NCBI RefSeq assembly: GCF_024519315.1
Contig: NZ_JANIIC010000013.1
Span: 1 to 64,000 of the forward strand
Length of the DNA: 64,000 bases
Direction: 5' to 3'
Source of the DNA: Streptomyces malaysiensis subsp. samsunensis
GTDB lineage: Bacteria > Actinomycetota > Actinomycetes > Streptomycetales > Streptomycetaceae
A program made the translations under genes and the position numbers. The notes under the pieces are model-generated. The model was not told the DNA's origin. It saw only the letters and a program-made list of their open reading frames with translations, and made no database searches. This document shows, piece after piece, positions 29,957 through 63,743 of this stretch (position 1 is its first letter; every line of letters starts with the position of its first letter).

Positions 29957-30823
29957 TCATGGCGTACGGTCGCTCCCGCGGTAGGCGACGGTCGCGATCT
30001 GGACGAAGGAGCGGATCAGGGGATTGGTGTCGTCCTCCTTCCACGCCGCCACCACGCGGCTCGGCGGCATGTCGATCAGCGGCACCACGGTGAGCCCCGC
30101 CGGTGACCCGTGGCCCATGGGGGTCATGCCGACCGTGCCGTTCCACAGCACGGCCTGCCGGCATTCCTGGACGCCGCGCACCACCGGGCCCTCGCGAGGT
30201 TCCCCGCCGTTCCAGTACGACTGCCAGACGGGGTCGGTGCCCGCCGGGAACAGGAACCAGCGGCGGTCCGCCAGGTCGGCGAGGGCCAGGCTGTCGCGGC
30301 GGGCCAGCGGATCGTCGGCGCGCAGCAGCGCGCCCACCGGGTCGGCGCGCAACTCGTGCGTGGTCAGGCCGGTCTTGTCGAACGGCCCGCGGGTCAGGGC
30401 GACATCGACCAGTCCGGCGTGCAGCCCGCAGGTGGGATCGGTCAGATCGGTCTCGCGGATGTGGACCTCGACGTCCGGGTGCCGCCGGGAGTAGGCGGCG
30501 GCCAGCCGGGTGGCGCCCGGGTCGGTGCTGTCAGCCAGCATGCCCACGGTGATGGCCGCCGCTCCGGCCGCGGCGGCCACGCGTACGCGCACCCGGTCGG
30601 CATGATCGAGCAGCGCACGCGCCTCGTCCAGCAGCACCTCCCCCACCGGAGTGAGCGCGACACCGGCGGACGACCGGCGGAACAGCGCGGCGCCGACGTC
30701 GGTTTCCAATGCCTTGATCGCCCGGCTCAGCGGCGGCTGGCTCATATGCAGCCGGGCGGCGGCCCGGCCGAAGTGGAGTTCCTCGGCCACCGCCACGAAG
30801 TAGCGCAACGTTCGTAGCTCCAT
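29957..30823 (-). CDS. LysR-family regulator next to the men-like cluster
   Basis: 288 residues. The N-terminal LysR winged helix is LRYFVAVAEELHFGRAAARLHMSQPPLSRAIKALE-like (residues 4-40), followed by an effector domain (ITVGMLADSTDPGATRLAAAY). It is divergent from the MenE-type ligase gene with a 257-base gap containing a perfect T-N11-A-type palindrome only 8 bases upstream of its start. I infer that it regulates the ligase gene and possibly the convergent operon. The ATG at 30823 is the only start close to the conserved MELRTLRYF. Confidence 0.85.
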   Translation of the reverse strand: MELRTLRYFVAVAEELHFGRAAARLHMSQPPLSRAIKALETDVGAALFRRSSAGVALTPVGEVLLDEARALLDHADRVRVRVAAAAGAAAITVGMLADSTDPGATRLAAAYSRRHPDVEVHIRETDLTDPTCGLHAGLVDVALTRGPFDKTGLTTHELRADPVGALLRADDPLARRDSLALADLADRRWFLFPAGTDPVWQSYWNGGEPREGPVVRGVQECRQAVLWNGTVGMTPMGHGSPAGLTVVPLIDMPPSRVVAAWKEDDTNPLIRSFVQIATVAYRGSDRTP

Positions 30824-30830
30824 GGTGCGA

Positions 30831-30849: not shown

Positions 30850-31080
30850 GCATCCCGGCACGGGTCTCAAACAGTCGCCGCGCCCCGCCAGTGGAATCGA
30901 TGTCCGCCGACCGGAGGGTGGTGGTCCGGGAGGCCGTGGCAGTTTCCTGACAGGTCGTTCCGCCACATCGGCCCACCGTGCCGTCGGGCCCTTAGCGTGG
31001 GCCGGAGGGGTGAGCGGTCTCGGGGTGTGAAGGCGATCGCTCGCGTGATGACGGATGTCTTTCGCGGAGGAGCCACCGCG

Positions 31081-32238
31081 ATGCTGATCCTGCCTTGCGA
31101 CGGTTCGGCGGACACGGTCGGCGCGCTGTCCTGTGCGCTGGCCGCGGCGGTCGAGGGGACCGGGGAAACCGTGCTGCCCGTGGCGGCCGGTGGGGGCCCG
31201 CCCGGTTTCGACACCAGCGGACCCGTGCCGACCGGGACGGCGGTGGTGGTCGGCACCTCCGGCTCCACCAGCGAGCCCAAGGGCGTGCTGCTCTCCGCCC
31301 GGGCGCTGCGCGCCTCGGCCGAGGCGACGCACACCAGGCTCGGGGGCCCCGGGCGCTGGTTGCTCACGCTGCCTGCACACCATGTCGCGGGCGTGCAGGT
31401 CCTGGTCCGCTCCCTTCTGGCCGGGGCGGAGGCAGTGGTCCACGATCTGGGGCAGGGCTTTCGGCCGGAGCGGTTCCGCTCCGCCGGATGCCGTTACACC
31501 GCGCTGGTGCCCACGCAGATCCGGCGTCTGCTGGATGCCGGTGGCCCCGGCCTGGCCGCGTTACGGGAGTTCGACGCCGTGCTGCTGGGCGGCGCGGGCG
31601 CACCCGAGCCGTTGCTGGCGCGTGCGCGGGAGGCGGGCGTGAGGGTGGTGACCACCTACGGCATGACGGAGACCGCCGGCGGCTGTGTCTACGACGGAGT
31701 GCCGCTGGCCGGGGTGCGGGTGCGGATCGGCCCGCCACCGGAGGGAACGGCCGGGCCCGCGGCGGGCGGTCCGATAGCTCTCGGCGGGCCGACCCTGGCA
31801 TCGGGCTATCTCAACCGGCCGGAGCGGACGGCCCGTTCGTTCGAGGACGGCTGGTTCCGCACCGACGACCTCGGGCGCTGGCGGGAGGACGGCCGTCTTC
31901 AGGTGCTGGGCCGGGCCGACGACGTGATCGTCACCGGTGGTGTGAAGGTGTCCCCGTCCGTGGTGGAGCGGGTGCTGCGCGAACAGCCCGGAGTCGGGGA
32001 CGTGTGTGTGGTGGGGGTGGACGACCCGGAGTGGGGGCAGATCGTCGTGGCCGCCATCGCTCCGTGTGAACCGGGCGCGGTGGGGCGGGAGGCGGTCGGC
32101 GCGCTGAAGGGCGCGGTCCGGGACCGGCTGGGACGCGCCGCCGCGCCCAAGGACATCCGGATCGTTCGGGCCCTGCCGCTGCGAGGCGTGGGAAAGCCGG
32201 ACCGGCAGGCCGTGCGCCGCCTGTTCAGCGCGGAGTGA
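31081..32238 (+). CDS. MenE-type o-succinylbenzoate-CoA ligase
   Basis: 385-residue AMP-forming acyl-CoA ligase of the short actinobacterial MenE type. The P-loop is GTSGSTSEPKGV, the A5 motif TYGMTETAGG, the A7 region FRTDDLGRW, the hinge GRADDVIVTGGVKVSP, and the C-terminal catalytic Lys is in GVGKPDR. It would activate o-succinylbenzoate or an analogue. I chose ATG 31081 (GGAGGAG nine bases upstream). It faces the end of a six-gene operon with isochorismate synthase, MenD and MenC homologues; the shared theme makes the assignment likely, but a different aryl acid is possible because this is not a normal menaquinone locus. Confidence 0.8.
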   Translation: MLILPCDGSADTVGALSCALAAAVEGTGETVLPVAAGGGPPGFDTSGPVPTGTAVVVGTSGSTSEPKGVLLSARALRASAEATHTRLGGPGRWLLTLPAHHVAGVQVLVRSLLAGAEAVVHDLGQGFRPERFRSAGCRYTALVPTQIRRLLDAGGPGLAALREFDAVLLGGAGAPEPLLARAREAGVRVVTTYGMTETAGGCVYDGVPLAGVRVRIGPPPEGTAGPAAGGPIALGGPTLASGYLNRPERTARSFEDGWFRTDDLGRWREDGRLQVLGRADDVIVTGGVKVSPSVVERVLREQPGVGDVCVVGVDDPEWGQIVVAAIAPCEPGAVGREAVGALKGAVRDRLGRAAAPKDIRIVRALPLRGVGKPDRQAVRRLFSAE

Positions 32239-32244
32239 GGTACG

Positions 32245-32286
32245 GGACGGTACGGGGCGTGGGGTCCCGGTCGTCACGTACCGTCC
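32245..32286. terminator. Inverted repeat between convergent menE-like and menC-like genes
   Basis: Perfect 10-base arms GGACGGTACG (32245-32254) and CGTACCGTCC (32277-32286), with a 22-base G/C-rich loop, lie just after the ligase stop and before the end of the convergent operon. A bidirectional terminator is the simplest reading. Confidence 0.55.
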
Positions 32287-32363
32287 GGTCGTCACTTATG
32301 GCCCGCGCCACGTACGACCCGCGTCACCTGCGGCCCGCGCCACGTACCGCCCCGCCGTCCGGC

Positions 32364-33476
32364 TCAGGCCGTCAGCTGGATGTGCCGCCGGGTGTGGGCC
32401 TCGAGGAAGTCATCCTTCACCTCGTACGGCACGGCCGTGTCCGGAACCTCGATCAGGCCGTCCACCGCCCGCGTTTCCGGAGTGACGATGTCCTCGCCGA
32501 AGTACTTGTCGGAGCCGGAGTTGTCGCCGGGCAGTGTGAAACCGGGCAGCGCCGAGAGCGTGACATTGGCCGCCCGGCTGATACCGAAGTCGTGCATACC
32601 ACCGCACCACACCGGCACCCCGGCCGCCACACAGGCGTCATGGACCCGGACGGCCTCCAGCAGACCGCCCAGGCGAGCCGGTTTGATGTTGACCACACGG
32701 CAGCTGCCCAGCGCCAGCGCCTCCCGCGCCCGTCCGGCGGAGGTGAGGCTCTCGTCGAGGCAGAGCGGTGTGGTCAGTTCCTTTTGCAGGGTGGCATGGT
32801 CCAGCAGATCGTCCCAGGCCAGCGGCTGCTCGATCATCATCAGCCCGAACGCGTCCAGATCGCGCAGCCGCGGGAGGTATTCAAGGGTGTAGGCGCAGTT
32901 GGCGTCGGCCATCAGCGGCAGCTCCGGGAACCGGTTCCTGATCGCCTCCAGCACTTTCACATCGGCTCCTGGGCCGATCTTGACCTTCACCCGCTGGTAC
33001 CCCTGCCCGACGTGGTGCGCGATGGTGTCGCACAGCCGGTCGTAGTCGCCGTCCATGCCCAGGCTGACGCCGGAGGGGACATGGGTGCGCGCCGCGCCAC
33101 CGAGCAGAGCGGCCAGCGGTCGGTCCGTGGTGGCGGCCAGCAGGTTCCACCCGGCCATCTCCATGCCGCACCGGGCGAAGTTGTTGGCCTTGACCCGGCC
33201 GTAGAGGGCCGTGAACTCCTCGATGGTGTCCCAGGAGCGGCCCATGACCGCCGGAGCGAGGAAGTCGCGGGTCACGGACCACACGGTGTCGGTCGTCTCG
33301 CCCAGGTAGTACGGATCGACCGGCACGGGCGCCTCGCCCCACCCCGTGCGGCCGTCGGCGGTGGTGGCGCGGACGACCACATGCAGCAGGGTCCGGGCGC
33401 TGTGGGTGCTGGCGGTGAAGCCGTGGGTGAGCCGCAGCTCCACCACGTAGAGGTCGAGCCGGTCGATGCGCGGCAC
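32364..33476 (-). CDS. MenC / NSAR-family o-succinylbenzoate synthase-like enzyme
   Basis: 370-residue enolase-superfamily protein. The catalytic KxK is VKVKIG, the metal ligands are Asp in MADANCAYT, Glu in MIEQPL and Asp in CLDESL, and the second Lys is in NIKPARLGG; this set marks the OSBS/N-acylamino-acid racemase branch. OSBS dehydrates SHCHC to o-succinylbenzoate. GTG 33476 has GGAAGGGG about 6 bases upstream. It is last in the operon, 57 bases after the EntA-like gene. Racemase activity cannot be excluded by sequence, but MenD and MenE homologues nearby favour an OSBS-like dehydration. Confidence 0.82.
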   Translation of the reverse strand: MPRIDRLDLYVVELRLTHGFTASTHSARTLLHVVVRATTADGRTGWGEAPVPVDPYYLGETTDTVWSVTRDFLAPAVMGRSWDTIEEFTALYGRVKANNFARCGMEMAGWNLLAATTDRPLAALLGGAARTHVPSGVSLGMDGDYDRLCDTIAHHVGQGYQRVKVKIGPGADVKVLEAIRNRFPELPLMADANCAYTLEYLPRLRDLDAFGLMMIEQPLAWDDLLDHATLQKELTTPLCLDESLTSAGRAREALALGSCRVVNIKPARLGGLLEAVRVHDACVAAGVPVWCGGMHDFGISRAANVTLSALPGFTLPGDNSGSDKYFGEDIVTPETRAVDGLIEVPDTAVPYEVKDDFLEAHTRRHIQLTA

Positions 33477-33533
33477 GGAGGTCCCCTTCCCGTCGTCGCG
33501 AGATGAAGTCGTCGATTGATGACGTGGCGGTGT

Positions 33534-34313
33534 CTAGGGCCTGAGGGTGGAGCCGCCGTCCACCGTCACGGTGGTGATCGTCATATGGGCCGCCTGGTCG
33601 GAGGCCAGAAAGCCGATGACGGAGGCGATGTCCTCGGGTTCGGCCAGAGTGCCGCGTGGGATACCCACCCGATGGCGTGCTGGGTCTCCGTGCAGCAGCG
33701 CCTGTCTCCGGCCGGGCAGATGTGCGTTGCTGCGGGACATCGGGGATTCGGTCGTGCCCGGCGCCACCACGACGGATCGCACACCGTGCTCCGCGAGTTC
33801 CAGTCCGGCGCAGTTGGTGAGGTACTGGGCCGCCGCCTTCGACGCCCCGTACAGCCCCTGGTCGTACTTGACGATCCCGGCGCTGTTCGACGCCACGGTG
33901 ATGACGCAGCCGCGTCCGCGTCGCGCCATCCGCCGGCCCACCGCGCGGACGCAGTTGAAGGTCCCCCGGACGTTGACGCCGAACACCCGCTCCCACTCGG
34001 CGTCCTCCTGCTCGGTCAGCGGGGCGGTGCGGCCGAGCACTCCGGCGGCGTTGACCAGGATGCCGATCGGGCCGAGCCGGTCCTCCACGTCCCGTACGGT
34101 CCGTTCCACATCGCCGGAGTCGGTGACGTCGAGGCGCACGGGGTGTGCCGCGGGGCCCAGTCGGCCGGCCACGGTGTGCGCCCCGTCCTCGTCGATGTCG
34201 GCCACGGCCACGATCGCGCCCTCGGCGGCCAGTTGGCGGGCGGTGGCGGCGCCGATGGCTCCTGCCGCGCCGGTGACCAGGGCCGTGACCTCGGCTATGC
34301 CGGTCAGCCTCAT
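33534..34313 (-). CDS. EntA-like short-chain dehydrogenase
   Basis: 259-residue SDR. TALVTGAAGAIGAATAR is the NAD loop, LVNAAGVLG the NNAG-equivalent, and Ser of VASNSAG with YGASK supply the catalytic triad. The C-terminal half (VVVAPGTTESPM, IPRGTLAEPEDIASVIGFLASD, VTVDGGSTL) matches EntA/DhbA, which oxidise 2,3-dihydro-2,3-dihydroxybenzoate to the catechol. The ATG overlaps the stop of the upstream hydratase-family gene (ATGA), so translation is coupled. No canonical isochorismatase is in the operon, so its substrate is probably another dihydrodiol, perhaps derived from the MenD product. Confidence 0.78.
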   Translation of the reverse strand: MRLTGIAEVTALVTGAAGAIGAATARQLAAEGAIVAVADIDEDGAHTVAGRLGPAAHPVRLDVTDSGDVERTVRDVEDRLGPIGILVNAAGVLGRTAPLTEQEDAEWERVFGVNVRGTFNCVRAVGRRMARRGRGCVITVASNSAGIVKYDQGLYGASKAAAQYLTNCAGLELAEHGVRSVVVAPGTTESPMSRSNAHLPGRRQALLHGDPARHRVGIPRGTLAEPEDIASVIGFLASDQAAHMTITTVTVDGGSTLRP

Positions 34314-35083
34314 GCTCCTCGCTCCGTTTCCCGGTCTGTCCCTCGCTCCGTTTCGCGGTCCGTTCCTCGCGCCGATTCCCGCCCCGCGCCCGGGAAGGAC
34401 TCCGCGGCCAGCAGCTCGGCGTCGATCCGTTCCAGCACCCCGGAGAAGCGCTGGAGCTGGCTTTTGAGCAGCGCGGTCGTGCTCGGGTCGTTGGCGGAGA
34501 TCTCGGTGGCGCACGCGGTGGCCTCGGCGCACGCCCGGCCCGGTGGTACCAGCCGCTGCAACAGCCCGAGCTGGTAGGCGTCCTGTGCCGTCACCCAGCG
34601 GGAGGTCAGAAGGAGATCCTTGGCGGCGCCCAGGCCGACCAGTCCGATGAGTTTGGCCGCCCCGATGGGGACGCCCATGCTGGAGCCCGGGAAGCGGTAC
34701 ACCGAGTCGTCGGCCCCCACCCGGATGTCGCAGGCGGCGGCCAGCTCCGCACCGGCGGCGACGCAGCGCCCCTCGATCGCGGCCACGGTCGCCTTGGGCG
34801 CGGCCGCCACCGTGCGCTGCAACCGCGCGAAGGCCCGCAGCCGACCCGCGAGTCCCTCGTTCCCCAACTCCTCGTCGCGGTCGGCCCCGACGCAGAAGTC
34901 CGGTCCGCTGCCGCTGAGGACGAGCACACGTACGGCGTCGTCGGCCAGTGTGTGCTCCACGGCGCGGAGCAACCGCACGGCCGCCTCCGTGCTCAGCGCG
35001 TTGCGGGCCTGTGGGCGGTCGATCCGCAGCTGTGCCACTCCGGTGGCGCGGTCCCGTTCGACGTCGATCACCGGGGTGCCCAC
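34310..35083 (-). CDS. Enoyl-CoA hydratase/isomerase family protein
   Basis: 257 residues with the crotonase fold: RPQARNALS, VLVLSGSGPDFCVGAD, and VAAIEGRCVAAGAELAAACDIR forming the oxyanion hole. It is not an obvious MenB: the SGGDQ and GSFDGG segments of DHNA-CoA synthase are absent, and the usual catalytic Glu positions around YRFPGSSMGVPIG are not acidic. The C-terminus ends in a low-complexity ETERGTDRETERGA tail encoded by a short repeat. GTG 35083 overlaps the MenD stop by 16 bases. In position it replaces MenB, so it may cyclise or cleave a CoA ester by altered chemistry; this is inference. Confidence 0.7.
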   Translation of the reverse strand: MGTPVIDVERDRATGVAQLRIDRPQARNALSTEAAVRLLRAVEHTLADDAVRVLVLSGSGPDFCVGADRDEELGNEGLAGRLRAFARLQRTVAAAPKATVAAIEGRCVAAGAELAAACDIRVGADDSVYRFPGSSMGVPIGAAKLIGLVGLGAAKDLLLTSRWVTAQDAYQLGLLQRLVPPGRACAEATACATEISANDPSTTALLKSQLQRFSGVLERIDAELLAAESFPGAGRESARGTDRETERGTDRETERGA

Positions 35084-36978
35084 AGCTCATCGAGGGCGCC
35101 GGCCACGGTCCGGTGGGTCCGGTCGTGCACCGCGACATTGGCCGCGCGGTCGGTACGCAGATGGATCATCGATACGCCCGGGGAGCCCACCTGCTCCTTC
35201 AGCGCGGTGCGCAGCTCTCCCTCGTCGGCGGCGTGGACGACACGCGCTCCGTAGGCCGCGGCGACGGCGGACACATCGGCGGCCTGCGGGGTGCCGAAGA
35301 GCAGCTCGAAGGTGTCAGCCGGGAGACGTGACGCCTGTGGCAGGAACGAGAAGATCCCACCGCCGTGGTTGTCCACCACCACGAGCGTGCAGCTCTCGGC
35401 GGCGCCCAGCAGCGCGCCGGCGTCGTGGAGGAAGGACAGATCGCCCAGTAGTACGGCCACCGGGCCCCGGCCCGCGGCCACGCCGAGCGCGGTGGCGATC
35501 GTGCCGTCGATTCCGTTGACGCCGCGGTTGGCGAGCACGGCGGGGGGACGGTGGCGCGGCGCGGCGAACCACTCCAGGTCCCGTATGGGCATCGAGGACC
35601 CGACCACCAGGGTCGCCTCGGTGGGCAGGGCGTCGAAGAGCGTACGGGCCACTCGTGGTTCGGTGAGTTCGCCTCGGCCGGCCAAGGCGGTGGCCACGGC
35701 CGCCTGCGCCGCGGCTTCGGCCGATGTCCACGTGGTGCGCCACTCCGGCCCTGCCAGGGGCTCCGGCACCGTCTCGGCCACGGCGCGGCACAGGGCCGTG
35801 GGATCGGTGCGCAGCACCGTGGCGGCCAGACGGTCCGGGTCCCGCCACCGCCAGTCCGGGTCGACGAGCACATGCCGGACACCGGGCTGCCGCAGCCAGT
35901 CGGCCAGTGCCCGTGAGGTCCAGCGCTCCCCCAGGTGCACGACCGCCTCGGGGCGCAGCCGGTCACAGGCGTGTGGACTGCGCAGGATGGCGTCGGCCGC
36001 CGCCACGGTGGCGGGGCCCGGGGTACGAGCGCCGGAGCGCGGATCGGCCAGCACCGGCCAGCCCAGCGCCGTGGCGGCCTCGTGCACGGCGTCCGGATCG
36101 CCCGCACCCGCGCCCACCACCAGGACGCCCCGTCCGGGCCCGCCCGCGACGGCGGCCACATCGGCCGGAGTGGCGCCCAGGACGGGACGGCTGACGTGGT
36201 GCCAGGGCCGTCCGTCCGGCCGGCCGGGCGGCATGGGGCCGGGCCGTGCGACCAAGGGGTCGCGGAAGGCCAGGTTGAGGTGGACGGGGCCGGGGCCGGA
36301 CGGTCCGGTCTCGGCCTCCGCCACGGAGCGGGCGGCCAGAGAGCGCCACATGCCGTCCTGGCTCCGCTCGGGAACCGCCACGGCCATGGCCCAGCGCGCC
36401 GCGGATCCGTACAGGCCCGTCTGGTTCATGGTCTGCGGGGCGCCCACGCCCTGTAACTCCGGCGGGCGGTCGGCGGTGCACACCACCATCGGCACTCCCG
36501 CCAGATCGGCCTCGGCGACCGCCGGATGGAGCTCGGCCGAGGCCGTGCCGCTGGTGGTGACCACGACGGTGGCGCGGCCGGTGGCACGGCTCAGCCCCAG
36601 GGCGAGGAAGCCCGCCGCGCGCTCGTCGAGGCGTATGTGCAGCCGCAGCCGGCCGTCCTCGGCGAGGGCGAGCGCGAGTGGGGTGGAGCGGGAGCCGGGC
36701 GCGATGACGGCCTCGCTCAGCCCCGCCCGGACCCATTCGTCGACGAGGGTGGCGGCGAAGGCCGCCTGGGCGCCTCCCTCGGTGTCGATGGCGGCCTGGG
36801 TGGCCCCTTCGGTGTCGATGGCCGCCTCGGCAGCCCCTTCGGTGTCGATGGCCGCCTCGGCAGCCCCTTCGGTGTCGATGGCCGCCTCGGCAGCCCCTTC
36901 GGTGTCACCGGCCGCTCGAGGGTTCTCCTCGGTGCCGGTGGCAGTTGCGTGTCCGTCCACGGATTCACGGCCCGCCAT
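35068..36978 (-). CDS. menD: MenD (SEPHCHC synthase) with N-terminal repeat extension
   Basis: 636-residue thiamin-diphosphate enzyme. Typical MenD segments are APGSRSTPLALALAE, RLDERAAGFLALGLSRATG, TTSGTASAELHPAVAEA, VNGIDGTIATALG, and the ThDP/Mg motif from LGDLSFLHDAG to DNHGGGIFSFLPQ. MenD adds the succinyl-semialdehyde carbanion from 2-oxoglutarate to isochorismate. Residues 1-75 are an extra segment containing four or five copies of DTEGAAEAAI, encoded by a 30-base repeat; normal MenD starts near AATLVDEWVRAG. The start (TGATG) overlaps the stop of the GH88-like gene, so the two are coupled. A functional MenD in a Streptomyces is unexpected. Confidence 0.88.
   Translation of the reverse strand: MAGRESVDGHATATGTEENPRAAGDTEGAAEAAIDTEGAAEAAIDTEGAAEAAIDTEGATQAAIDTEGGAQAAFAATLVDEWVRAGLSEAVIAPGSRSTPLALALAEDGRLRLHIRLDERAAGFLALGLSRATGRATVVVTTSGTASAELHPAVAEADLAGVPMVVCTADRPPELQGVGAPQTMNQTGLYGSAARWAMAVAVPERSQDGMWRSLAARSVAEAETGPSGPGPVHLNLAFRDPLVARPGPMPPGRPDGRPWHHVSRPVLGATPADVAAVAGGPGRGVLVVGAGAGDPDAVHEAATALGWPVLADPRSGARTPGPATVAAADAILRSPHACDRLRPEAVVHLGERWTSRALADWLRQPGVRHVLVDPDWRWRDPDRLAATVLRTDPTALCRAVAETVPEPLAGPEWRTTWTSAEAAAQAAVATALAGRGELTEPRVARTLFDALPTEATLVVGSSMPIRDLEWFAAPRHRPPAVLANRGVNGIDGTIATALGVAAGRGPVAVLLGDLSFLHDAGALLGAAESCTLVVVDNHGGGIFSFLPQASRLPADTFELLFGTPQAADVSAVAAAYGARVVHAADEGELRTALKEQVGSPGVSMIHLRTDRAANVAVHDRTHRTVAGALDELWAPR
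36751..36909 (-). repeat. 30-base tandem repeat encoding the MenD N-terminal extension
   Basis: Four full 30-base units at 36781-36810, 36811-36840, 36841-36870 and 36871-36900, the last three identical, with degenerate partial copies on both sides. Each encodes DTEG(A/G)(A/T)(E/Q)AAI. Identity between copies implies recent expansion; unit length keeps the frame. Confidence 0.95.
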
Positions 36979-38426
36979 CAGCGTGTCCAATCCTTCACCG
37001 CACCGATGCGCACCAGCGCCGCGCCGAGCTGGCCCAGCAACCCTGAACCGACACCGGAGAGCATGCGGTAGCCGCTGCGCTGTAACTCCTCGCCGCCCTT
37101 GTTCGACGGGGAGGAGCCGTCGAGCCAGCCGTCCGGTGTCAGCCGGTCGCACAACACCTCCCATGTCTCCTGCGCGACCGCGCCCTCGCGATCGGCGGCG
37201 AAGCGGCCGCGCTCCACGCCCAGCGCCAGGGCCGCGGCGATACCGGCGGACCCGCAGGTCTCCGCGGCGGTGGCGGGCTCACCGAGGTAGCAGTCCCAGA
37301 TGCCGGCTGCGTTGCGCCGGGAGAGCGCCAGCCGGGCGGCCCTCGCGGCCTCGTCCCACAGGTCGTCGGTGTCCGGCTGGTCGCCGAGCTCGGACAGGGT
37401 GCGCACCAGGCCGAGCAGATACCAGGCGTAGGCGCGGGCCCAGTTGCGGTAGATACGGCTGCCGTCGGGCAGCAGCCTCAGATAGAGGTCGTCATCCCAT
37501 GTCAGCCGCCTGCGGCGGACTCGGAGCTGGCGGATGGCCGCCTCGCGTAACCGGGCGTCCCCGGTGGCCTGTGCGAGGACGGCCATGGGGTAGGCGACGG
37601 TGTAGCAGCCCTCGGCCGTGGTCGGGGCGTCCTTGACGCATCCATGGGGATCGGTCCGGGCGTCCCAGGAGTCGATGGCCAGCCGGAGCGTGGGGTGCCG
37701 CGGGTCCCGCTTGGCGACCACCGCGAACGGGAGTGTGGCCTCGATCCCGTACACCCGGTCGTTCGCGGGGCGGCTGCGCGGATCCTCGTAGCGCAGCCGG
37801 ATGCCATGGACATAGACGGCGAGATGGTCTCGTAGCGCGGTCTCCGCGCGGGTGTCGGCGGGGAAGGTGGTGTGCAGGTCGTACAGCGCGTCCAGCACAC
37901 ATCCCTCCATCCATCCGAAGGGCTGCACACTGGCGATGCTGGTGAGGTGGTGGTGGAGTGCGGCGGCCGGAGCCGACGGGTCCTCGGTGTCCAGCAGCAG
38001 TGACGGGCGGCGTTCGACAGGGGCGTCCGGGCCGGAGAAGATCCACAGCGGCTCGGTCGCCGGGTCGGGTGCGAGCGTGAGCCGTACGCCCTCGTCCGCC
38101 ACGGCCCGTACCGCGTCGCCGTCCAGCGGCAGGTCGTAGGGCTGGTGGCAGTCGGCGTAGCGGATGTCGAAGGAGCCGAGCGGCCGACCGGTACGTGCCG
38201 AGGCGGCCTCGACACGACGGACGTCCCGTACGTCGCAGGCGACGAAGAGCCGGAGCCGTCCCGGAGCGGCGGGTACCGCGGAGTGCCATTCCAGCACCGT
38301 GGGCGGGTGGCCGCCGGCGCCGGCGATGGGAGCGGTCGACCATGTCAGCGGTGTGCGCCGGTCCGACGGGAAGGGAACGCTCGGCGCATCCACAGTGCTC
38401 GCGGGAACATGGTGTGCGATTGCCAT
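36978..38426 (-). CDS. GH88/GH105-like six-hairpin protein inside the isochorismate operon
   Basis: 482 residues. The first ~180 are a beta-rich domain; the rest looks like an (alpha/alpha)6 barrel of the unsaturated glucuronyl/rhamnogalacturonyl hydrolase group: GWMEGCVLDALYDLH, CYTVAYPMAVLAQATGDARLREAAIRQ-like helices, and RNWARAYAWYLLGLVRTL. I cannot place the usual catalytic Asp pair with confidence. GH88/GH105 enzymes act by hydrating a vinyl ether, and isochorismate and SEPHCHC both carry an enolpyruvyl (vinyl) ether, so a pyruvate-releasing role is an attractive inference. No signal peptide, so cytosolic. ATG 38426 (GAGGGA upstream) is 17 bases after isochorismate synthase and overlaps menD. 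Confidence 0.6.
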   Translation of the reverse strand: MAIAHHVPASTVDAPSVPFPSDRRTPLTWSTAPIAGAGGHPPTVLEWHSAVPAAPGRLRLFVACDVRDVRRVEAASARTGRPLGSFDIRYADCHQPYDLPLDGDAVRAVADEGVRLTLAPDPATEPLWIFSGPDAPVERRPSLLLDTEDPSAPAAALHHHLTSIASVQPFGWMEGCVLDALYDLHTTFPADTRAETALRDHLAVYVHGIRLRYEDPRSRPANDRVYGIEATLPFAVVAKRDPRHPTLRLAIDSWDARTDPHGCVKDAPTTAEGCYTVAYPMAVLAQATGDARLREAAIRQLRVRRRRLTWDDDLYLRLLPDGSRIYRNWARAYAWYLLGLVRTLSELGDQPDTDDLWDEAARAARLALSRRNAAGIWDCYLGEPATAAETCGSAGIAAALALGVERGRFAADREGAVAQETWEVLCDRLTPDGWLDGSSPSNKGGEELQRSGYRMLSGVGSGLLGQLGAALVRIGAVKDWTR

Positions 38427-38443
38427 GATGATCCCTCGCATGT

Positions 38444-39580
38444 TCAGGGCGCTATGAGCGCCGGCAGAATGGCGCCCAGCTTCGCACGGGTCTCGGCCAG
38501 TTCCTCTTTCGGGTCGGAATCCGCGACTATGCCGTTCCCGACGTACATGGTGGCGTTTTTGCCGTGAATCTCGGCGCAGCGAATGGTCACGCAGAGACAG
38601 CCGTCGCCCTTCGCGTCCACCCAGCCGAGTGCCCCTCCGTAAAGCCCTCTGTCCCACCCCTCCAGGCGCTCGATCACTTCGTACGCCTTGTCACGGGGCC
38701 AGCCGCAGACCGCGGGGGTCGGATGGAGCATGGCCGCCAGTCGCAGAAACGACGGATGGTCTGCCACGAGCTCGGCCCGGACCCGGGTCATCAGATGCTG
38801 GACGTTCGCCAGTTTGAGCATCTCGGGCCGCTCATTGGCCTCGATCCAGGTGGTGCTGGGCGCCAGGGCGTCCAGCACCGCCTCGCGCAGGACCCGGTGC
38901 TCCTCCTGGTTCTTACCGGACTCCTGGAGCCAGGCGGCGAGCCGCCGGTCGGACTCGGCGTCCCCGCCGCGGCGGATGGTGCCGGCCAGGGCGCGTGACT
39001 CCACCATCCGCCCGCGCTTGGCCAGCAACAGCTCCGGACTGGCTCCCACCAGGCCGAAGGCGGAGAACAGATAGGCGGAGGGGAAGGTGTGGGCCAGCCG
39101 CCGCAGCACCACGGACGGCTGGATGTCGGCGTCGCACTCCATCTGGATGCGCCGGGCGAGGACCGCCTTGCGCAGCTCGCCGCGGCGCACGGCGCGCGCC
39201 GCGTCGGCGACGCTGCCGCACCACTGCTCGGGCGATTCGCTGGGCCGCAGAGCGTAGGTGCCGGGTTCACCGCTCTTCGCGGATGGGCTCGGGACCGAGG
39301 CCAGGAGGCGACGGTGGTCGGCCGTCTCCTCCGGGCTCAGGCTCAGTGTCCGGGCGGGAACCGCGAGCCGGATGGGCTCATGGCGCTGAAACGGAAAGGC
39401 CACGAACCCGATTCCCCCACCGGCCGCCAGCGCTTGGGCTATGTCCTTCTCGGAATCGACCAAATGGTATTTGACAGGCTCAATTCCGAGAAGTGTGCGG
39501 TCCGGTCCGGAAAAGAATAATCGGCGATTATCCAGACGATCGATCGCGTCATCGACCATTTCTTGCGAACGTGCCACCAC
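38444..39580 (-). CDS. Isochorismate synthase (DhbC/EntC/MenF type)
   Basis: 378 residues of the chorismate-using enzyme fold. The catalytic Lys is in LRKAVLARR, GASPELLLAKRG holds a Mg ligand, SRALAGTIRRG the conserved GT loop, and LHPTPAVCGWPRDKA, GLYGGALGWVD and VGNGIVADSDP complete the signature. It isomerises chorismate to isochorismate with Mg2+. First gene of a six-gene minus-strand operon. Several GTG/ATG starts are possible (39580, 39577, 39559); none has a strong site. No DtxR-type iron box is visible upstream, which argues against a siderophore role. Confidence 0.87.
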   Translation of the reverse strand: MVARSQEMVDDAIDRLDNRRLFFSGPDRTLLGIEPVKYHLVDSEKDIAQALAAGGGIGFVAFPFQRHEPIRLAVPARTLSLSPEETADHRRLLASVPSPSAKSGEPGTYALRPSESPEQWCGSVADAARAVRRGELRKAVLARRIQMECDADIQPSVVLRRLAHTFPSAYLFSAFGLVGASPELLLAKRGRMVESRALAGTIRRGGDAESDRRLAAWLQESGKNQEEHRVLREAVLDALAPSTTWIEANERPEMLKLANVQHLMTRVRAELVADHPSFLRLAAMLHPTPAVCGWPRDKAYEVIERLEGWDRGLYGGALGWVDAKGDGCLCVTIRCAEIHGKNATMYVGNGIVADSDPKEELAETRAKLGAILPALIAP

Positions 39581-39627: not shown

Positions 39628-39861
39628 CGTTCCAACAGCCTCGCATTGACGGGTAAATGCGTCAAGATCCGACCAATGCAGAAGTCCACTTGATGGACAC
39701 GTACGGGCAGCGCGCGTGAACGATCGCCCGCCGAGGGCGTCAGCGATCGTCACGCCAAGGTGGCTGTTGATCGCGGATTCACCGTCAGGGCGTCGAAGAT
39801 CCATATGGCGGCCTGCCGGTCGGGCGGTGACACTGGGGTCACGTCTGAAGACAGGTGGGCC

Positions 39862-40383
39862 ATGGACACCATCGAGGAGACGATCGAGGTCGCGGTCCCG
39901 GTACGCACCGCCTACAACCAATGGACCCAGTTCAAGAGCTTTCCCCGGTTCATGTCCGCGGTGAAGGAGGTCGAGCAGGTCAGGCCCGCGATCACGCACT
40001 GGGTCATCGGATGCGGCCCGGTGCGCCGCACCTTCCGGACGGAGATCGTGCGGCAGCACCCCGACTCCTGCGTGGCGTGGCGAAGCCTTCAGCGGCGCCC
40101 CTCCCACCGGGGTGAGGTCTCCTTCCACCCCACGGCGGCGGACCGCACCCGGGTCACCGTGCGTATGGAGGTCCAGCGGCACCGAGCCGCGGCCCTCCTC
40201 ACAGGCCCCTCCTCCGCCGTCATGCGCCGTGTGGTCCGCAACGAACTCGGGCGCTTCAAGGAGTTCATCGAGGGCCTGGGCCAGGAGAGCGGGGCCTGGC
40301 GGGGGTCCATCCACAACGGACATGTGAGGCCGACGGAACCGGAACCGCCGAGAAGCCGGGTGGCTCGCTGGCCCGTGGGCTGA
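39862..40383 (+). CDS. SRPBCC-family (polyketide cyclase/dehydrase-like) protein
   Basis: 173 residues with the START/SRPBCC pattern: MDTIEETIEVAVPVRTAYNQ, a W-x-Q helix, KSFPRFMSAVKEVEQV, and a C-terminal amphipathic helix (VVRNELGRFKEFIEGL). Family members bind or cyclise hydrophobic ligands; close relatives in actinomycetes are often stress-linked coenzyme or lipid binders. ATG 39862 has ACAGGTGG upstream. It is 29 bases before the molybdoenzyme gene with the same orientation and likely co-transcribed. It is divergent from the men-like operon, so a cyclase role for that product is possible but unsupported. Confidence 0.7.
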   Translation: MDTIEETIEVAVPVRTAYNQWTQFKSFPRFMSAVKEVEQVRPAITHWVIGCGPVRRTFRTEIVRQHPDSCVAWRSLQRRPSHRGEVSFHPTAADRTRVTVRMEVQRHRAAALLTGPSSAVMRRVVRNELGRFKEFIEGLGQESGAWRGSIHNGHVRPTEPEPPRSRVARWPVG

Positions 40384-40412
40384 CCCGCGTCCGAGAGAGC
40401 GAGGCACACCCG

Positions 40413-42722
40413 ATGAAGAAGGCGCCGAGACACGAGCCGGAGGTGCGGCTCTCCGCCACGTCGCCCAGGAAATGGGCGGCGGGAGTGCCCGCGGTGACCC
40501 ATGCGCTGGAGTACTCCCTGGAGGAGACCACGGCCCGGCGCACCGCGACCACGCTGCTGACCATGAACCAGGTGGCCGGCATCGACTGTCCCGGCTGCGC
40601 CTGGGCCGACCCCGCCCCCGGCCACAGACACCGCAACGAATACTGCGAGAACGGCGCCAAGCACATCAACGACGAGGCGACGGCGCGGCGCGTCACCGCC
40701 GACTTCTTCCGCACCCATACGGTCTCCGAGCTCGGCCGCCGTTCCGACCTGTGGCTGAACCAGCAGGGCCGGCTCACCGAACCCATGGTCAAGCGACCGG
40801 ACTCGGACCACTACGAGCCGATCAGCTGGCATGACGCCCTGGGCCTGCTCGCCGCGGAGTTGACGTCGCTGGACTCCCCCGACGAGGCGGTCTTCTACAC
40901 CTCGGGCCGGGCCAGCAACGAGTCCGCCTTCGTCCTCCAGCTCTTCGCCAGGGCCTTCGGCACCAACAACCTGCCCGATTGCAGCAATATGTGCCATGAG
41001 TCCAGTGGCTTCGCGCTGCACGAGACCTTGGGCACGGGCAAGGGCACGGTGAGCCTGGACGATATGCACCAGGCCGACCTGATCTTCCTGGTGGGCCAGA
41101 ACCCCGGAACCAACCATCCCAGGCAGCTCTCCGCGCTGGAGCAGGCGAAGATCAACGGCGGCCACATCATCGCGGTGAACACTCTGCCGGAAGCCGGGCT
41201 GCTGCGGTTCAAGAACCCGCAGCGGGTCCGCGGGGTGATCGGGCCCGGCACCCGCATCGCCGACCGATTCCTCCATATCCGCGGCGGTGGCGACCTCGCG
41301 CTGTTCCAGGCCCTGAACCGGCTGCTGCTGGAGGCGGAGGACGCACGGCCGGGCACCGTGCTCGACCACGACTTCATCCGCTCCAGCACCAACGGCTTCG
41401 AGGAGTTCTCCCGGCACATCCGCGCCATCTCCTGGGACGACGTCCTGACCGCCACCGGACTGACCCGACAGGAGATCGAGGAGGTCCGGGACGGTGTCCT
41501 GGGCAGCGAGCGCATCATCGTCTGCTGGGCCATGGGGGTGACCCAGCACCGGCACGCCGTGCCCACCATCAGGGAGATCGTGAACTTCCTGATGCTGCGC
41601 GGAAACCTCGGCAGAGCCGGCACCGGCGCCTGCCCGGTGCGCGGGCACAGCAATGTGCAGGGCGACCGCACGATGGGCATCTGGGAGCAGATGCCGGACT
41701 CCTTCCTGGACGCGCTGCGGGACGAGTTCGGCTTCGATCCGCCGCGCGCCCACGGACTGGACTCGGTGAACGCGATCAGAGCCATGCGCGAGGGCCGTAT
41801 CAGGGTCTTCCTCTCGCTCGCGGGCAACTTCGTCCGGGCCGCTCCGGACAGCGCGGTCACCGAGGAGGCCATGCGGCGATGCCGCCTCACCGCCCATATC
41901 TCCACCAAGCTCAACAGATCCCATCTGGTCTGCGGGCGGACCGCGCTCATCCTGCCGACCCTGGGCCGTACCGAACGGGACATCCAGGCCAGTGGCGAGC
42001 AGTTCATCACCGTGGAGAACTCGATGAGCGAGGTGCACACCTCCTACGGGCGCCTGAAACCGGCCTCCAAGCTGCTGCTCAGCGAGGTCGCCATCCTGTG
42101 CCGGCTCGCGCGCCACACCCTCGGCGGCAGGACCGGTATCCCCTGGGACCGGTTCGAGTGCGACTACGGGGCGATCCGCCACCACATCTCCCGTATCGTC
42201 CCGGGCTTTCACGACTTCAACCGGCGAGTGGCCCGCCCCGGTGGCATCAGACTGCCCAACCCGGTCAACGAGGGAGTCTTCGCCACTCCCGCCGGCAAGG
42301 GCCTGTTCACCCGCAACGCCTGGGACATGCCGCACACCCCCGAGGGACACCTGCTGCTCCAGACCCTGCGCTCACACGACCAGTGGAACACCATCCCGTA
42401 CACGGACAACGACCGCTATCGAGGCATCCACGGACGGCGCAGGGTGATTCTGGTCAATCCGGCCGACATGACCGAACTCGGGCTCAGCGAGGGACAGTTG
42501 GTCGACCTGGTGGGTGTGTGGACCGACGAGGTGGAGCGCCGCGCGGAGGACTTCGAGGTGGTCCCGTATCCCACCACACGCGGCTGCGCCGCCACGTACT
42601 ACCCGGAGACCAACGTCCTGGTGCCGCTCGACAGCGTGGCCGAGATCAGCAACCAGCCGACGTCGAAGGGGATCGTAGTCCGCCTGGAGGCCCATGGCAC
42701 CGCGGAACGTCACCGCTCCTGA
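40413..42722 (+). CDS. FdhF/YdeP-family molybdopterin oxidoreductase
   Basis: 769 residues of the DMSO-reductase/formate-dehydrogenase-alpha-like family. The segment GIDCPGCAWADP and the nearby FCENGAK-like YCENGAKHIND match the YdeP/FdhF branch; FYTSGRASNESAFVLQLFAR, CHESSG, and LVGQNPGTNHPR are molybdopterin-domain landmarks, and GCAATYYPETNVLVPLD closes the C-terminal domain. It probably needs bis-MGD; E. coli YdeP is linked to acid resistance. No other redox subunit or FdhD-like sulfurtransferase is adjacent. ATG 40413 follows the SRPBCC gene closely. Confidence 0.85.
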   Translation: MKKAPRHEPEVRLSATSPRKWAAGVPAVTHALEYSLEETTARRTATTLLTMNQVAGIDCPGCAWADPAPGHRHRNEYCENGAKHINDEATARRVTADFFRTHTVSELGRRSDLWLNQQGRLTEPMVKRPDSDHYEPISWHDALGLLAAELTSLDSPDEAVFYTSGRASNESAFVLQLFARAFGTNNLPDCSNMCHESSGFALHETLGTGKGTVSLDDMHQADLIFLVGQNPGTNHPRQLSALEQAKINGGHIIAVNTLPEAGLLRFKNPQRVRGVIGPGTRIADRFLHIRGGGDLALFQALNRLLLEAEDARPGTVLDHDFIRSSTNGFEEFSRHIRAISWDDVLTATGLTRQEIEEVRDGVLGSERIIVCWAMGVTQHRHAVPTIREIVNFLMLRGNLGRAGTGACPVRGHSNVQGDRTMGIWEQMPDSFLDALRDEFGFDPPRAHGLDSVNAIRAMREGRIRVFLSLAGNFVRAAPDSAVTEEAMRRCRLTAHISTKLNRSHLVCGRTALILPTLGRTERDIQASGEQFITVENSMSEVHTSYGRLKPASKLLLSEVAILCRLARHTLGGRTGIPWDRFECDYGAIRHHISRIVPGFHDFNRRVARPGGIRLPNPVNEGVFATPAGKGLFTRNAWDMPHTPEGHLLLQTLRSHDQWNTIPYTDNDRYRGIHGRRRVILVNPADMTELGLSEGQLVDLVGVWTDEVERRAEDFEVVPYPTTRGCAATYYPETNVLVPLDSVAEISNQPTSKGIVVRLEAHGTAERHRS

Positions 42723-43009: not shown

Positions 43010-43035
43010 TGAAACCCCGCTGACCAAGGGTTTCA
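43010..43035. terminator. Hairpin upstream of the agmatinase fragment
   Basis: TGAAACCC (43010-43017) and GGGTTTCA (43028-43035) form a perfect 8-bp stem with a 10-base loop. Together with the following palindrome it may be a terminator for the molybdoenzyme transcript or a leader structure for the next gene. Confidence 0.45.
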
Positions 43036-43040
43036 TGGAA

Positions 43041-43064
43041 CGGTTTCCCGGATCCGGGAAACCG
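43041..43064. promoter_or_regulatory. 24-base perfect palindrome
   Basis: CGGTTTCCCGGA (43041-43052) is followed directly by its exact reverse complement (43053-43064). A palindrome with no loop is more typical of a dimeric protein site than of an RNA terminator. It lies about 200 bases before the agmatinase start. Confidence 0.55.
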
Positions 43065-43265
43065 GGACCACACGGTCGGCTTCCGGGCCAGCGCTGTGTC
43101 ATGGGCACGAAAACCGTGCCTCGTACACCGAAGCCGGTGCGAAGTGAGGGCGAAGAGCCAGACGAGCGCCCTTCCCCGTTAACCGACGGGCTGTCTGATC
43201 GACCCCGGAACACGGCCTCCCCACAGGCCGGCACTCCCCCCGCAGATGAAGGACTCAGCACGACC

Positions 43266-43898
43266 ATGACCGCGAACACTCCCGGCCCGGCCAGGCCCGT
43301 CCCACCCCAGGAAACCGAGACCACCCTGCACTTCACGGGCCCGGCGACCTTCGGCCGCGTCCCGCGCCTGGACCAGGTCGACACGGCGGACATCGCCGTG
43401 GTCGGAGTGCCGTTCGACGCCGGTGTCTCCTACCGGCCGGGCGCGCGCTTCGGTGCGAACGCCATCCGGGAGGCATCGCGCCAGCTGCGCCCCTACAACC
43501 CGGCCCAGGACGCATACCCGTTCCACTACGTCCAGGTCGCGGACGCCGGAGACATCACCGCCAATCCGCACGACATCGACCAGGCGGTTCAGAGCGTCGA
43601 GGCGGGCACGGACGCCCTGCTGTCCACGGGCGCGCGGCTGATGACACTGGGCGGCGACCACACCATCGCGCTCCCCATCCTGCGCTCGGTGGCCCGTCGG
43701 CACGGCCCGGTGGCGCTGCTGCACTTCGACGCGCACCTGGACACCTGGGACACCCACTTCGGGGCCCAGTACACCCACGGAACACCCTTCCGCCGCGCGG
43801 CCGAGGAGGGCCTCCTCGACACCTCCGCGCTCTCACACGTCGGCACCCGCGGCTCGCTGTACAGCAAGGAGGACCTGGACGAGGACACCAAGCTGGGC
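43266..43898 (+). pseudogene. Agmatinase/ureohydrolase, N-terminal two thirds
   Basis: 211 residues of a SpeB-type ureohydrolase (normal length about 320). [27 protein letters not shown]-type opening, the metal-site motifs GGDHTIALP and [11 protein letters not shown], and [12 protein letters not shown] are intact. It ends at DLDEDTKLG; the third Mn motif (SxDxDxxDP) that should follow is missing. The next bases belong to a GlxA-type regulator in another frame, so translation would run on through unrelated sequence. The active site is incomplete, so the protein is very likely inactive. ATG 43266 has AAGGA upstream. Confidence 0.8.
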
Positions 43899-44526
43899 TC
43901 ATGGCCGCCGGGCCGCCACCCACTGGGAACTGGCGTCACAGCTGGCCGCCGCCTACCCCCGGGTGCGGGTGGACGGCAACCCCGTCTTCGTCCGGGACGG
44001 CCATGTGGCCACATCGGCCGGCATCACCGCCGGAATCGACCTTTCGCTGTCGCTGGTCGAGGAGGACTGGGGAGCGGACGTGGCGCGCAACGTGGCCAGA
44101 CAGCTGGTGGTCTTCATGGCCCGTCCGGGCGGGCAGGCGCAGTTCAGCGCACGGCTGGCCCCGCGTCAGCCACGGCATCCGGCGGTGCGCCGGGTGATGG
44201 ACCGCGTCACCGCGGACCCCGCGGGGTGCCACACACTGGCCACGCTGGCCGCCTCGGGCGGTGTGAGCGTCCGTCACCTGGAGCGGCTGTTCCGTACCGA
44301 GGTCGGCCTCACCCCCGGCCGCTATGTCGAATCCGTCCGTGTGGAGGCGGCGCAGGCACTTCTCGCGGACGGCACCGGCACGGTCGAGGAGGTGGCACAA
44401 CAGGCCGGGTTCGGCTCCTCGGAGTCGCTGCGCCGGGTCTTCCAGCACACCCTCGGGGTCTCACCGACGGTCTACCGCGCCCGTTTTCGCAGCACTCTCG
44501 GCGCGCCGCACCTCACGGCGGGATAG
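43899..44526 (+). pseudogene. GlxA/AraC-type regulator, C-terminal portion
   Basis: From the junction, one frame reads [57 protein letters not shown], and then an AraC double helix-turn-helix ([43 protein letters not shown]). This is the back half of a GlxA-family protein; the first ~110 residues of the DJ-1/PfpI-like domain are gone. A GTG-initiated short product from 43963 is possible but no site precedes it. The DNA-binding domain is intact, so residual binding activity cannot be excluded. Confidence 0.75.
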
Positions 44527-44654
44527 GCGGCGGCGCGGCCGGGCGACCACCCGCTTCGGCCCCGGACGCGGCGGAGAGACGGTGCCCCGTGGTCCGGGGA
44601 AACCGGTCACGGCCACCGCCCCTCCCTGGCTAAGCGGATCGGCGGAAGTCGGCT

Positions 44655-62784: not shown

Positions 62785-63039
62785 GTCGCCACGCCACGGC
62801 TGGGGTGGACCAGCGACGGGGGTTCCTCGGGGCTCAGCGGCGGCGCGGGTTCCTGGCTCGGTGTACGTACCTGGAGCCGGACCGGCTGGTGGGGCGTGTG
62901 CGCACTCGTCGCCTGCCTCACCGCGCTCGCCCTGGTCCGCCATCTGCTCGCCCTGCGCCGGTCCCGGGCGGACCGGGCCGGGGCCGCACACCGCGACGCG
63001 GCCACTACGCCCCCGAACCCTCCCCTCGCAACGCGGTGA
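62785..63039 (+). pseudogene. Membrane-protein C-terminal fragment
   Basis: About 85 residues: a short extracytoplasmic-looking stretch (TPRLGWTSDGGSSGLSGGAG), a single membrane helix (TWWGVCALVACLTALALVRHLLA region, with WGVCALVACLTALALV), and a basic cytoplasmic tail. It looks like the end of a membrane protein whose N-terminal part is gone. It overlaps the 3' end of the convergent isochorismatase-family gene by 35 bases. Confidence 0.45.
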
Positions 63040-63640
63040 GGAGCTCCTTCGTGCCGAGGATGGCATGGGCGAAGGTGGGGCCGTTCAGCTCGTGTGCGGA
63101 GTGCATCATCTCGGGTTTGGCCGCGGCCGTGGCGTCACGGACCAGCGTGACGTGGTAGCCGAGCTCCATGGCGAACCGGCCGGTGGACTCGATGCAGGTG
63201 TTCGCCAGCAGCCCGACGAGGATCACATGGCTGATGCCGTGCTGCCTGAGCCGCGTATCCAGATCGGTGTTGGCGAACCCGCTCTGTGCCCAGTGCTCAT
63301 GGACCACCGTCTCCCCCGGCTCCGGCTGGAAGTCGGGATGGAACTCCCCGCCCCAGGTGCCCTTGGCGAAGCTGTGCCGCACCATGATGTTCCGCTGGGT
63401 CGGGTTGGGGTGGTCCCATGACTCGTAGTCGCCCGGCTCCCAGCGGCGGTGCGGGACGAACACCACCCGCACCCCGGACCGCCGGGCGGAGCCGACGATG
63501 GCGCGCAGATTGTCCAGCAGGCCGACCTCCTCGGCGACGCTCTCCACGGCCGGCCAGACCTTGCCTCCCTCGGAGAGGAAGTCGTTGTACGGATCGACCA
63601 GCAGCACCGCCGTTCGCCGGGGCTCGTAGGTCTCGGCCAT
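63005..63640 (-). CDS. Isochorismatase-family cysteine hydrolase
   Basis: 211 residues. AVLLVDPYNDFLSEGG carries the catalytic Asp, VVHEHWAQSGFANTDLD the substrate-binding strand, and LVGLLANTCIESTGRFAMELGY the nucleophile Cys with its cis-peptide loop. Family members cleave nicotinamide, ureidoacrylate, other amides or vinyl ethers; the Cys marks an amidase-type rather than a true isochorismatase (which lacks it). ATG 63640 has GGAGGAG upstream; a longer start at 63724 is less likely. It is divergent from a TetR gene across a palindrome. Confidence 0.83.
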   Translation of the reverse strand: MAETYEPRRTAVLLVDPYNDFLSEGGKVWPAVESVAEEVGLLDNLRAIVGSARRSGVRVVFVPHRRWEPGDYESWDHPNPTQRNIMVRHSFAKGTWGGEFHPDFQPEPGETVVHEHWAQSGFANTDLDTRLRQHGISHVILVGLLANTCIESTGRFAMELGYHVTLVRDATAAAKPEMMHSAHELNGPTFAHAILGTKELLTALRGEGSGA

Positions 63641-63743
63641 GTCGTCTCCTCCGCCGTCCGGACGATCACCGACCCCCTGAGCAGCCGGCGTCCTGGACCC
63701 GTCCGAGTGCCCGGCCGTTGCCATCCGAATCCGCTTCCGCCAT

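Follow-up and report, generated by a model that had tools for sequence, protein, structure and literature searches.

A glutamate-pair relative of GH88/GH105 enzymes in an isochorismate-MenD operon of Streptomyces: a tentative enolpyruvyl-ether hydrolase

Why should a gene whose product resembles enzymes that hydrate unsaturated uronic acids lie between the genes for isochorismate synthase and MenD? The question is raised by an operon of Streptomyces malaysiensis subsp. samsunensis, on a 64,000-nucleotide stretch of DNA (contig NZ_JANIIC010000013.1, positions 1 to 64,000, assembly GCF_024519315.1) that we call the window. On the minus strand the genes follow one another as isochorismate synthase, a GH88/GH105-like protein (hereafter the GH88-like protein), MenD, a crotonase-fold protein, an EntA-like short-chain dehydrogenase (SDR) and MenC, and a plus-strand MenE gene converges on them (Table 1). 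The stop codon of isochorismate synthase ends at 38444, which leaves 17 bases before the GH88-like ATG, and the GH88-like stop codon overlaps the MenD start codon by a single base (TGATG). This placement had been pointed out in an earlier, sequence-only reading of the locus, and both the coordinates and its recurrence in other loci agree with it. By chemical analogy we tentatively propose, at somewhat short of an even chance, that the GH88-like protein comes from a glycan-associated sister family of GH88/GH105 and has been recruited to hydrolyse enolpyruvyl ethers inside the cell, probably with the MenD product as its substrate.

Structure prediction recovers the barrel fold of vinyl-ether-hydrating uronate enzymes that had been suspected from sequence. 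The full-length model, computed from a 12-sequence alignment, has a mean predicted local distance difference test score (pLDDT) of 90.2 and a predicted template modelling score of 0.92. Residues 151-478 are predicted to form an (alpha/alpha)6 barrel whose 19 best structure-match rows are all of GH105/GH88 type (Z 36.3-24.4); the first other fold appears at Z 24.2, where only the lowest GH88 rows tie with it, and epimerases and a diphosphate synthase lie further down the list. Among the barrel matches are 3k11 (Z 36.3), 3pmm (36.2), 4wu0 (35.7) and YteR (1nc5; Z 34.6, root-mean-square deviation (rmsd) 2.5 over 314 residues, 14% identity), followed by the unsaturated glucuronyl hydrolase (UGL) 1vd5 (28.6) and streptococcal UGL entries (24.4-27.4). 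A Pfam scan gave Glyco_hydro_88 only (50.1 bits against a cut-off of 26.6), over residues 279-439, or profile positions 138-312, with no match to isochorismatase PF00857; 11 of the 12 members of the family alignment A1 match Glyco_hydro_88 at E≤0.01. The model has neither the isochorismatase fold nor the alpha/beta hydrolase fold of MenH. Residues 1-150 fold separately as a predicted jelly roll (pLDDT 88.5) resembling carbohydrate-binding modules (CBMs). It matches the chondroitin-binding module 8wab best (134 residues at rmsd 3.1, Z 13.1); in the rows from Z 10.0 downwards TGF-beta prodomains are mixed with CBMs (CBM6/35), and a Foldseek search with this domain returned nothing at E≤0.001. 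Inspection shows no hydrophobic N-terminal stretch, in keeping with the earlier statement that a signal peptide is absent.

The sequence-only reading had been unable to place the usual catalytic Asp pair. By alignment, both positions can now be located and both are acidic: E229 corresponds to YteR D88 and E272 to YteR D143, and each is invariant in 12 of 12 family sequences. D143 is the Asp of the YteR WLDGLYM motif, which is N in the D143N structure 2gh4. The family profile aligns a YPlaviak stretch with LPLAKIGK of 3qwt; eight residues back, with no gap, E272 falls on the 3qwt Asp, and the alignment to 3pmm is ungapped as well. In a profile-profile alignment with a canonical set (A2), whose residue pairing was read by eye, E272 and E229 pair with D157 and D102 of the genome's own GH88 protein, and W329, R331 and R317 with its W226, R228 and H203. 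W329 and R331 also match YteR W211 and R213, and the YteR H189 position is R317. The available excerpt of PMC4528949 includes D88, D143, H189 and W211 among the active residues of YteR, gives Asn as the D88 equivalent in RhiN and YesR, and describes the GH88/GH105 mechanism as hydration of the unsaturated uronate bond. Neither the Asp of UGL D149/YteR D143, which marks GH88/GH105, nor the second Asp (YteR D88) is present in the window protein. Because Glu replaces both, the alignments assign the GH88-like protein to a sister family and not to GH88/GH105 proper.

The position of the gene is conserved, and this supports a role in the pathway around it. Five Streptomyces loci (the window, G096, L003, L004 and L005) carry the same seven-gene cassette, and in all five the GH88-like gene stands between isochorismate synthase and MenD. 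The gap upstream of it measures 17 bases in the window, 18 in L003, L004 and G096, and 16 in L005 (counted to the first start); the overlap with MenD reads TGATG in all of these except L005, where it is GTGA. Since G096 and L003 are 97% identical across 16 kb, they are hardly independent. L005 is the most distant locus, with cassette proteins 59-76% identical to those of the window, and its aligning block runs only from MenE to isochorismate synthase (31141-39517). The ratio of nonsynonymous to synonymous substitution (dN/dS) of the GH88-like gene is 0.18 against L004, 0.20 against G096 and 0.35 against L005, within the range of five cassette neighbours (0.13-0.38; MenE not included, and L003 left out as its MenD is split between frames), from which we conclude that the gene is kept as a working part. 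The four Streptomyces GH88-like proteins in our tree form one supported clade. In L003 itself (Streptomyces violaceusniger NBRC 13459, about 12750-12858) MenD shifts frame near residue 479, through either a sequencing error or a broken gene.

The cassette is rare. Searches with profile A1 found the GH88-like protein in two of 392 sampled genomes of the genus, its own included, and in one of 396 from the phylum, again its own. Another 11 loci, of which three are in Streptomyces, came from a pattern scan of an 84,980-species collection; the scan picks up only close relatives and may miss records close to that of the window. Three pattern matches in viral contigs were not confirmed as relatives, and none was found on plasmids. 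A GH88-like match at E≤1e-5 was also absent from ten MenD neighbourhoods of other Actinomycetota, which were taken from the 98 further genomes that match MenD; three of these contigs are shorter than 12 kb. SDR matches at 30-35% identity occur in three of these neighbourhoods; for those of L064 and L066 the best model is of glucose-1-dehydrogenase type, with no EntA model among the best 25 listed. In L066 (2126-4527; actinomycetote G667) a crotonase and the glucose-1-dehydrogenase-type SDR lie beside a MenE match, a few kb from MenD.

What reaction could such a protein contribute? An enolpyruvyl ether is an alpha-alkoxyacrylate; so is an unsaturated uronate, if its C4=C5 bond is taken together with the carboxylate and the ring oxygen. 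By analogy, uronate hydration may carry over to isochorismate or to the MenD product, 2-succinyl-5-enolpyruvyl-6-hydroxycyclohex-3-ene-1-carboxylate (SEPHCHC). E272, standing in place of the general acid-base Asp of YteR and UGL, would protonate the enolpyruvyl CH2 and guide water onto the carboxylate-bearing carbon; collapse of the hemiketal would release pyruvate and leave a ring hydroxyl, the substrate being held by E229, W329 and R331. SEPHCHC would be the likeliest substrate, giving 2-succinyl-5,6-dihydroxycyclohex-3-ene-1-carboxylate, and the same diol could be reached if the GH88-like protein acted on isochorismate ahead of MenD. The EntA-like SDR would oxidise C5, MenC would remove the C6 hydroxyl, and tautomerisation would yield 5-hydroxy-2-succinylbenzoate for activation by MenE; the crotonase step is not placed in this scheme.

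The dehydrogenase gives this proposal much of its logic. TIGR04316 is its best model, the next non-EntA model scores 177.5 bits, and of the 150 genome candidates scored, out of 244, no other is EntA-like at E≤1e-50. EntA oxidises the carbon that bore the ether, and the site of action of the operon SDR should likewise be the ring carbon to which the enolpyruvyl group was attached. MenH-type elimination would leave no oxygen there, whereas hydrolysis would retain it, so that the operon appears to need a hydrolase. The GH88-like protein is, crotonase aside, the only cassette member without an assigned step. EntA acts on the diol left by isochorismatase, according to the available excerpt of PMC12210187, and the earlier suggestion that a diol formed by pyruvate loss would suit the SDR is supported.

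A further argument of the sequence-only reading, that the operon has neither a canonical isochorismatase nor a MenH, holds for the operon itself and carries less weight beyond it. The whole genome has 13 MenH matches, none above the cut-off (best 66.5 of 208.55 bits), which is a weak argument because only three of 14 control genomes reach that cut-off. Its absence from the operon is weak evidence too, since inspection finds no MenH near the MenD cluster of L019 either, a Streptomyces locus whose MenB is confirmed by model. The genome also encodes seven isochorismatase-fold proteins, one of them inside the window (63005-63724, minus strand), 25 kb from the operon. As a hidden EntB this one is unlikely: its Cys motif is the one seen in amidase-type members, and the models that score best, none of them reaching its cut-off, are those for RutB and further amidases, which points to a cysteine hydrolase of RutB/amidase type; its best match in the PDB is 3kl2, a 'putative isochorismatase'.

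Menaquinone synthesis was considered as the role of the operon and rejected. The genome has two VitK2_biosynth (futalosine) matches, and none of its 27 crotonase matches exceeds the MenB cut-off of 342.7 bits; because of this combination we conclude that the operon does not serve menaquinone. The operon crotonase was itself discarded as a MenB on its score of 82.3 bits, rank 14 of the 27, and on its motif, judged by eye. MenD occurs in three of the 392 genus genomes, two with the cassette and the third being G257, whose cluster (L019, 8422-15466) holds MenD, MenC-like, MenB (399 bits, above the same cut-off), MenE and MenF. In the operon, MenF, MenD, MenC and MenE each score above the cut-off of one model; for isochorismate synthase the genome has six matches, of which only one is above the cut-off. 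MenD can also accept the diol 2,3-trans-dihydroxycyclohexadiene carboxylate (2,3-trans-CHD), a point for which we found no literature source. By eye in alignment A4, cassette MenD retains the residues matching R32, R106, R409, R428, I489, F490 and L493 of Bacillus subtilis MenD, where R32 and R106 are important for isochorismate (available excerpt of PMC2914249). This favours MenD working on isochorismate itself with the GH88-like protein after it, an order that is not proven. The N-terminal extension of this MenD contains a unit of about ten residues (DTEGAAEAAI and variants) repeated some five times (about 36906-36754, minus strand) and is shorter in aligned relatives.

Relatives outside Streptomyces account for eight of the 11 pattern-scan loci, at 32-48% identity. 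Context could be judged for seven, the truncated L012 being left out, and four of these have glycan-degradation surroundings: the relative adjoins SusC/SusD in L013, lies near GH9, GH94 and a beta-helix protein in L007, near GH38 and GH3 in L008, and near GH29 in L006. The remaining three loci are from Pirellulaceae and closely related to one another; only one neighbour was scanned there (L009, FG-GAP/ASPIC repeats), and that no glycan gene could be recognised does not prove that there is none. With the cassette proteins as tblastn queries, none of the eight loci matched isochorismate synthase, MenD, MenE or the crotonase; L006 gave weak enolase-type and SDR matches. By eye, the L012 and L013 relatives have signal-like N-termini.

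These relatives supply several of the points that weigh against an enolpyruvyl-ether hydrolase. E229, E272, W329 and R331 are common to the Streptomyces and outside proteins, within 22 invariant polar positions, and only 13 positions are conserved in the Streptomyces group and differently conserved outside, most of the changes being mild. As the active-site residues are shared with glycan-locus relatives, no specificity switch is visible; judged on sequence, the Streptomyces proteins probably keep the chemistry of their outside relatives, with no new substrate indicated. The Glu pair, being family-wide, is accordingly no evidence for a chorismate-type substrate. To these must be added the retained CBM-like domain, the failure of the SDR to reach the equivalog cut-off, the six other isochorismatase-fold proteins of the genome, which could act in trans, and the replacement of both Asp by Glu and of H189 by R317, which could mean other chemistry. 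The hydrolase idea of the sequence-only reading is partly supported: fold, position, the fit of the SDR, acidic residues at both catalytic positions and an analogy closer than it had stated speak for it, and the family-wide change to Glu does not.

The shared active site and the glycan neighbourhoods speak for a protein that is still sugar-active, as does the resemblance of its N-terminal domain to a chondroitin-binding module. It would then be a glycosidase, perhaps an unsaturated-uronyl hydrolase, whose substrate is a glycosylated form of an intermediate or of the end product of the operon. We nevertheless hold this unlikely, if worth serious attention: no glycosyltransferase match turned up among the seven cassette proteins, the alignment of L005 with the window is confined to the cassette, the gene is wedged inside the operon and not at its end, and the protein has no signal-like N-terminus by eye. 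Loss of both catalytic Asp and of the canonical His, together with the epimerases and diphosphate synthase among the lower-ranked related barrels, would suit a binding role or a different reaction on the cyclohexene intermediates, for instance the addition or removal of water at a ring double bond; with an invariant acidic pair and nothing except GH105/GH88 types among the 19 best structure matches, we think this quite improbable. The gene adjoins MenD, MenC and MenE follow, and no MenH in the genome exceeds its cut-off, all of which would fit a MenH replacement that eliminates pyruvate from the MenD product to give 2-succinyl-6-hydroxy-2,4-cyclohexadiene-1-carboxylate for MenC, with no hydroxyl left. 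Such a step would give the EntA-like SDR nothing to act on, and the reaction of GH88/GH105 enzymes is a hydration (PMC4528949, excerpt). By inspection of L019, MenH need not be encoded close to MenD, and only three of 14 control genomes reach the MenH cut-off; we give this alternative little credence.

Should the GH88-like protein be an enolpyruvyl-ether hydrolase, a sugar-degrading fold would have been recruited to shikimate-type metabolism, with the same reaction on an alpha-alkoxyacrylate but a different substrate. The Glu-Glu family might then be a second, unrelated enzyme solution for enolpyruvyl-ether hydrolysis, opening a branch through isochorismate, SEPHCHC, the diol and 5-hydroxy-o-succinylbenzoate to a Streptomyces metabolite independent of menaquinone, a wider possibility that we hold more loosely. 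Pyruvate-releasing enzymes would gain a new class and isochorismate metabolism a new branch, which would point to an undescribed Streptomyces product. Even if the proposal is false, a Glu-Glu sister family of GH88/GH105 has been defined.

Table 1. The cassette and its LysR-type neighbour, in window coordinates
Feature	Coordinates	Strand	Remarks
GH88/GH105-like protein, 482 aa	36978..38426	minus	ATG at 38426, TGA at 36980-36978
Isochorismate synthase	38444..39577	minus	TIGR00543 275.3 bits, cut-off 224.75
MenD with N-terminal extension	35068..36978	minus	TIGR00173 431 bits, cut-off 244.2
Crotonase-fold protein	34310..35083	minus	ECH_1 113 bits
EntA/DhbA-like SDR	33534..34313	minus	TIGR04316 233 bits, cut-off 300
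MenC-like o-succinylbenzoate synthase	32364..33476	minus	TIGR01928 291.6 bits, cut-off 200.65; catalytic motifs present
MenE-like o-succinylbenzoate-CoA ligase	30997..32238	plus	NF005877 372 bits, cut-off 345
LysR-type regulator	29957..30826	minus	matched in L003, L004, G096

The GTG start of isochorismate synthase given in Table 1 falls at the same place in all five loci, with ATG 39559 and GTG 39580 as possible alternatives; the protein was scored as 38444-39487, from inside the gene. We take the MenC to be of o-succinylbenzoate synthase/N-succinylamino acid racemase (OSBS/NSAR) type. No match to the LysR-type regulator was found in the flank fetched for L005. Adjoining the operon on the plus strand (39760-42722), a molybdopterin oxidoreductase gene lies next to a polyketide-cyclase-like (SRPBCC) gene; neither has a match in the sequence retrieved around the other cassettes. 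Further along the plus strand (43035-44633), an agmatinase-like open reading frame fits only the first part of its family model, the remainder being unmatched, and its alignment with L003 and L004 jumps near 43900, as if by a deletion in the window or an insertion in the others. A PADLOC scan found nothing.

Two possible precedents were set aside: the naphthoquinone cluster of Streptomyces caniferus follows a different route with futalosine genes (available excerpt of PMC4763440), and a relationship of ulvan dehydratase to GH88 is not stated in the available excerpt of PMC8511951. In the open-access literature, with subscription journals mostly not covered, isochorismate and GH88 came up together only in a paper on a red-alga genome, and among the matches listed nothing was on point. 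Among known systems, the classical menaquinone cluster of Streptomyces G257 (L019) shares matches to MenF, MenD, MenC-like and MenE proteins, and differs in having a MenB above cut-off, no GH88-like protein and no match to the cassette SDR. The GH105 enzymes (YteR 1nc5/2gh4, 4wu0, 3pmm, 3qwt) share the barrel at Z 34.6-36.2 and rmsd 2.5-2.6, are likewise acidic at the two catalytic positions and have the equivalents of W329 and R331; in contrast, the window protein is only 13-15% identical to them, carries E229, E272 and R317 for D88, D143 and H189, has an extra N-terminal CBM-like domain and is encoded in a biosynthetic operon. UGL 1vd5 of GH88 likewise shares the barrel, and Glyco_hydro_88 is matched above cut-off, whereas identity is 17% and the catalytic Asp pair has become Glu. 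MenH releases pyruvate from the MenD product, as proposed here, but does so by elimination in an alpha/beta hydrolase and not by hydrolysis. The isochorismatases EntB and PhzD are unrelated in fold, and their PF00857 model is unmatched by the GH88-like protein, yet the reaction proposed for it would be theirs: an enolpyruvyl vinyl ether would be hydrolysed, releasing pyruvate and leaving a diol.

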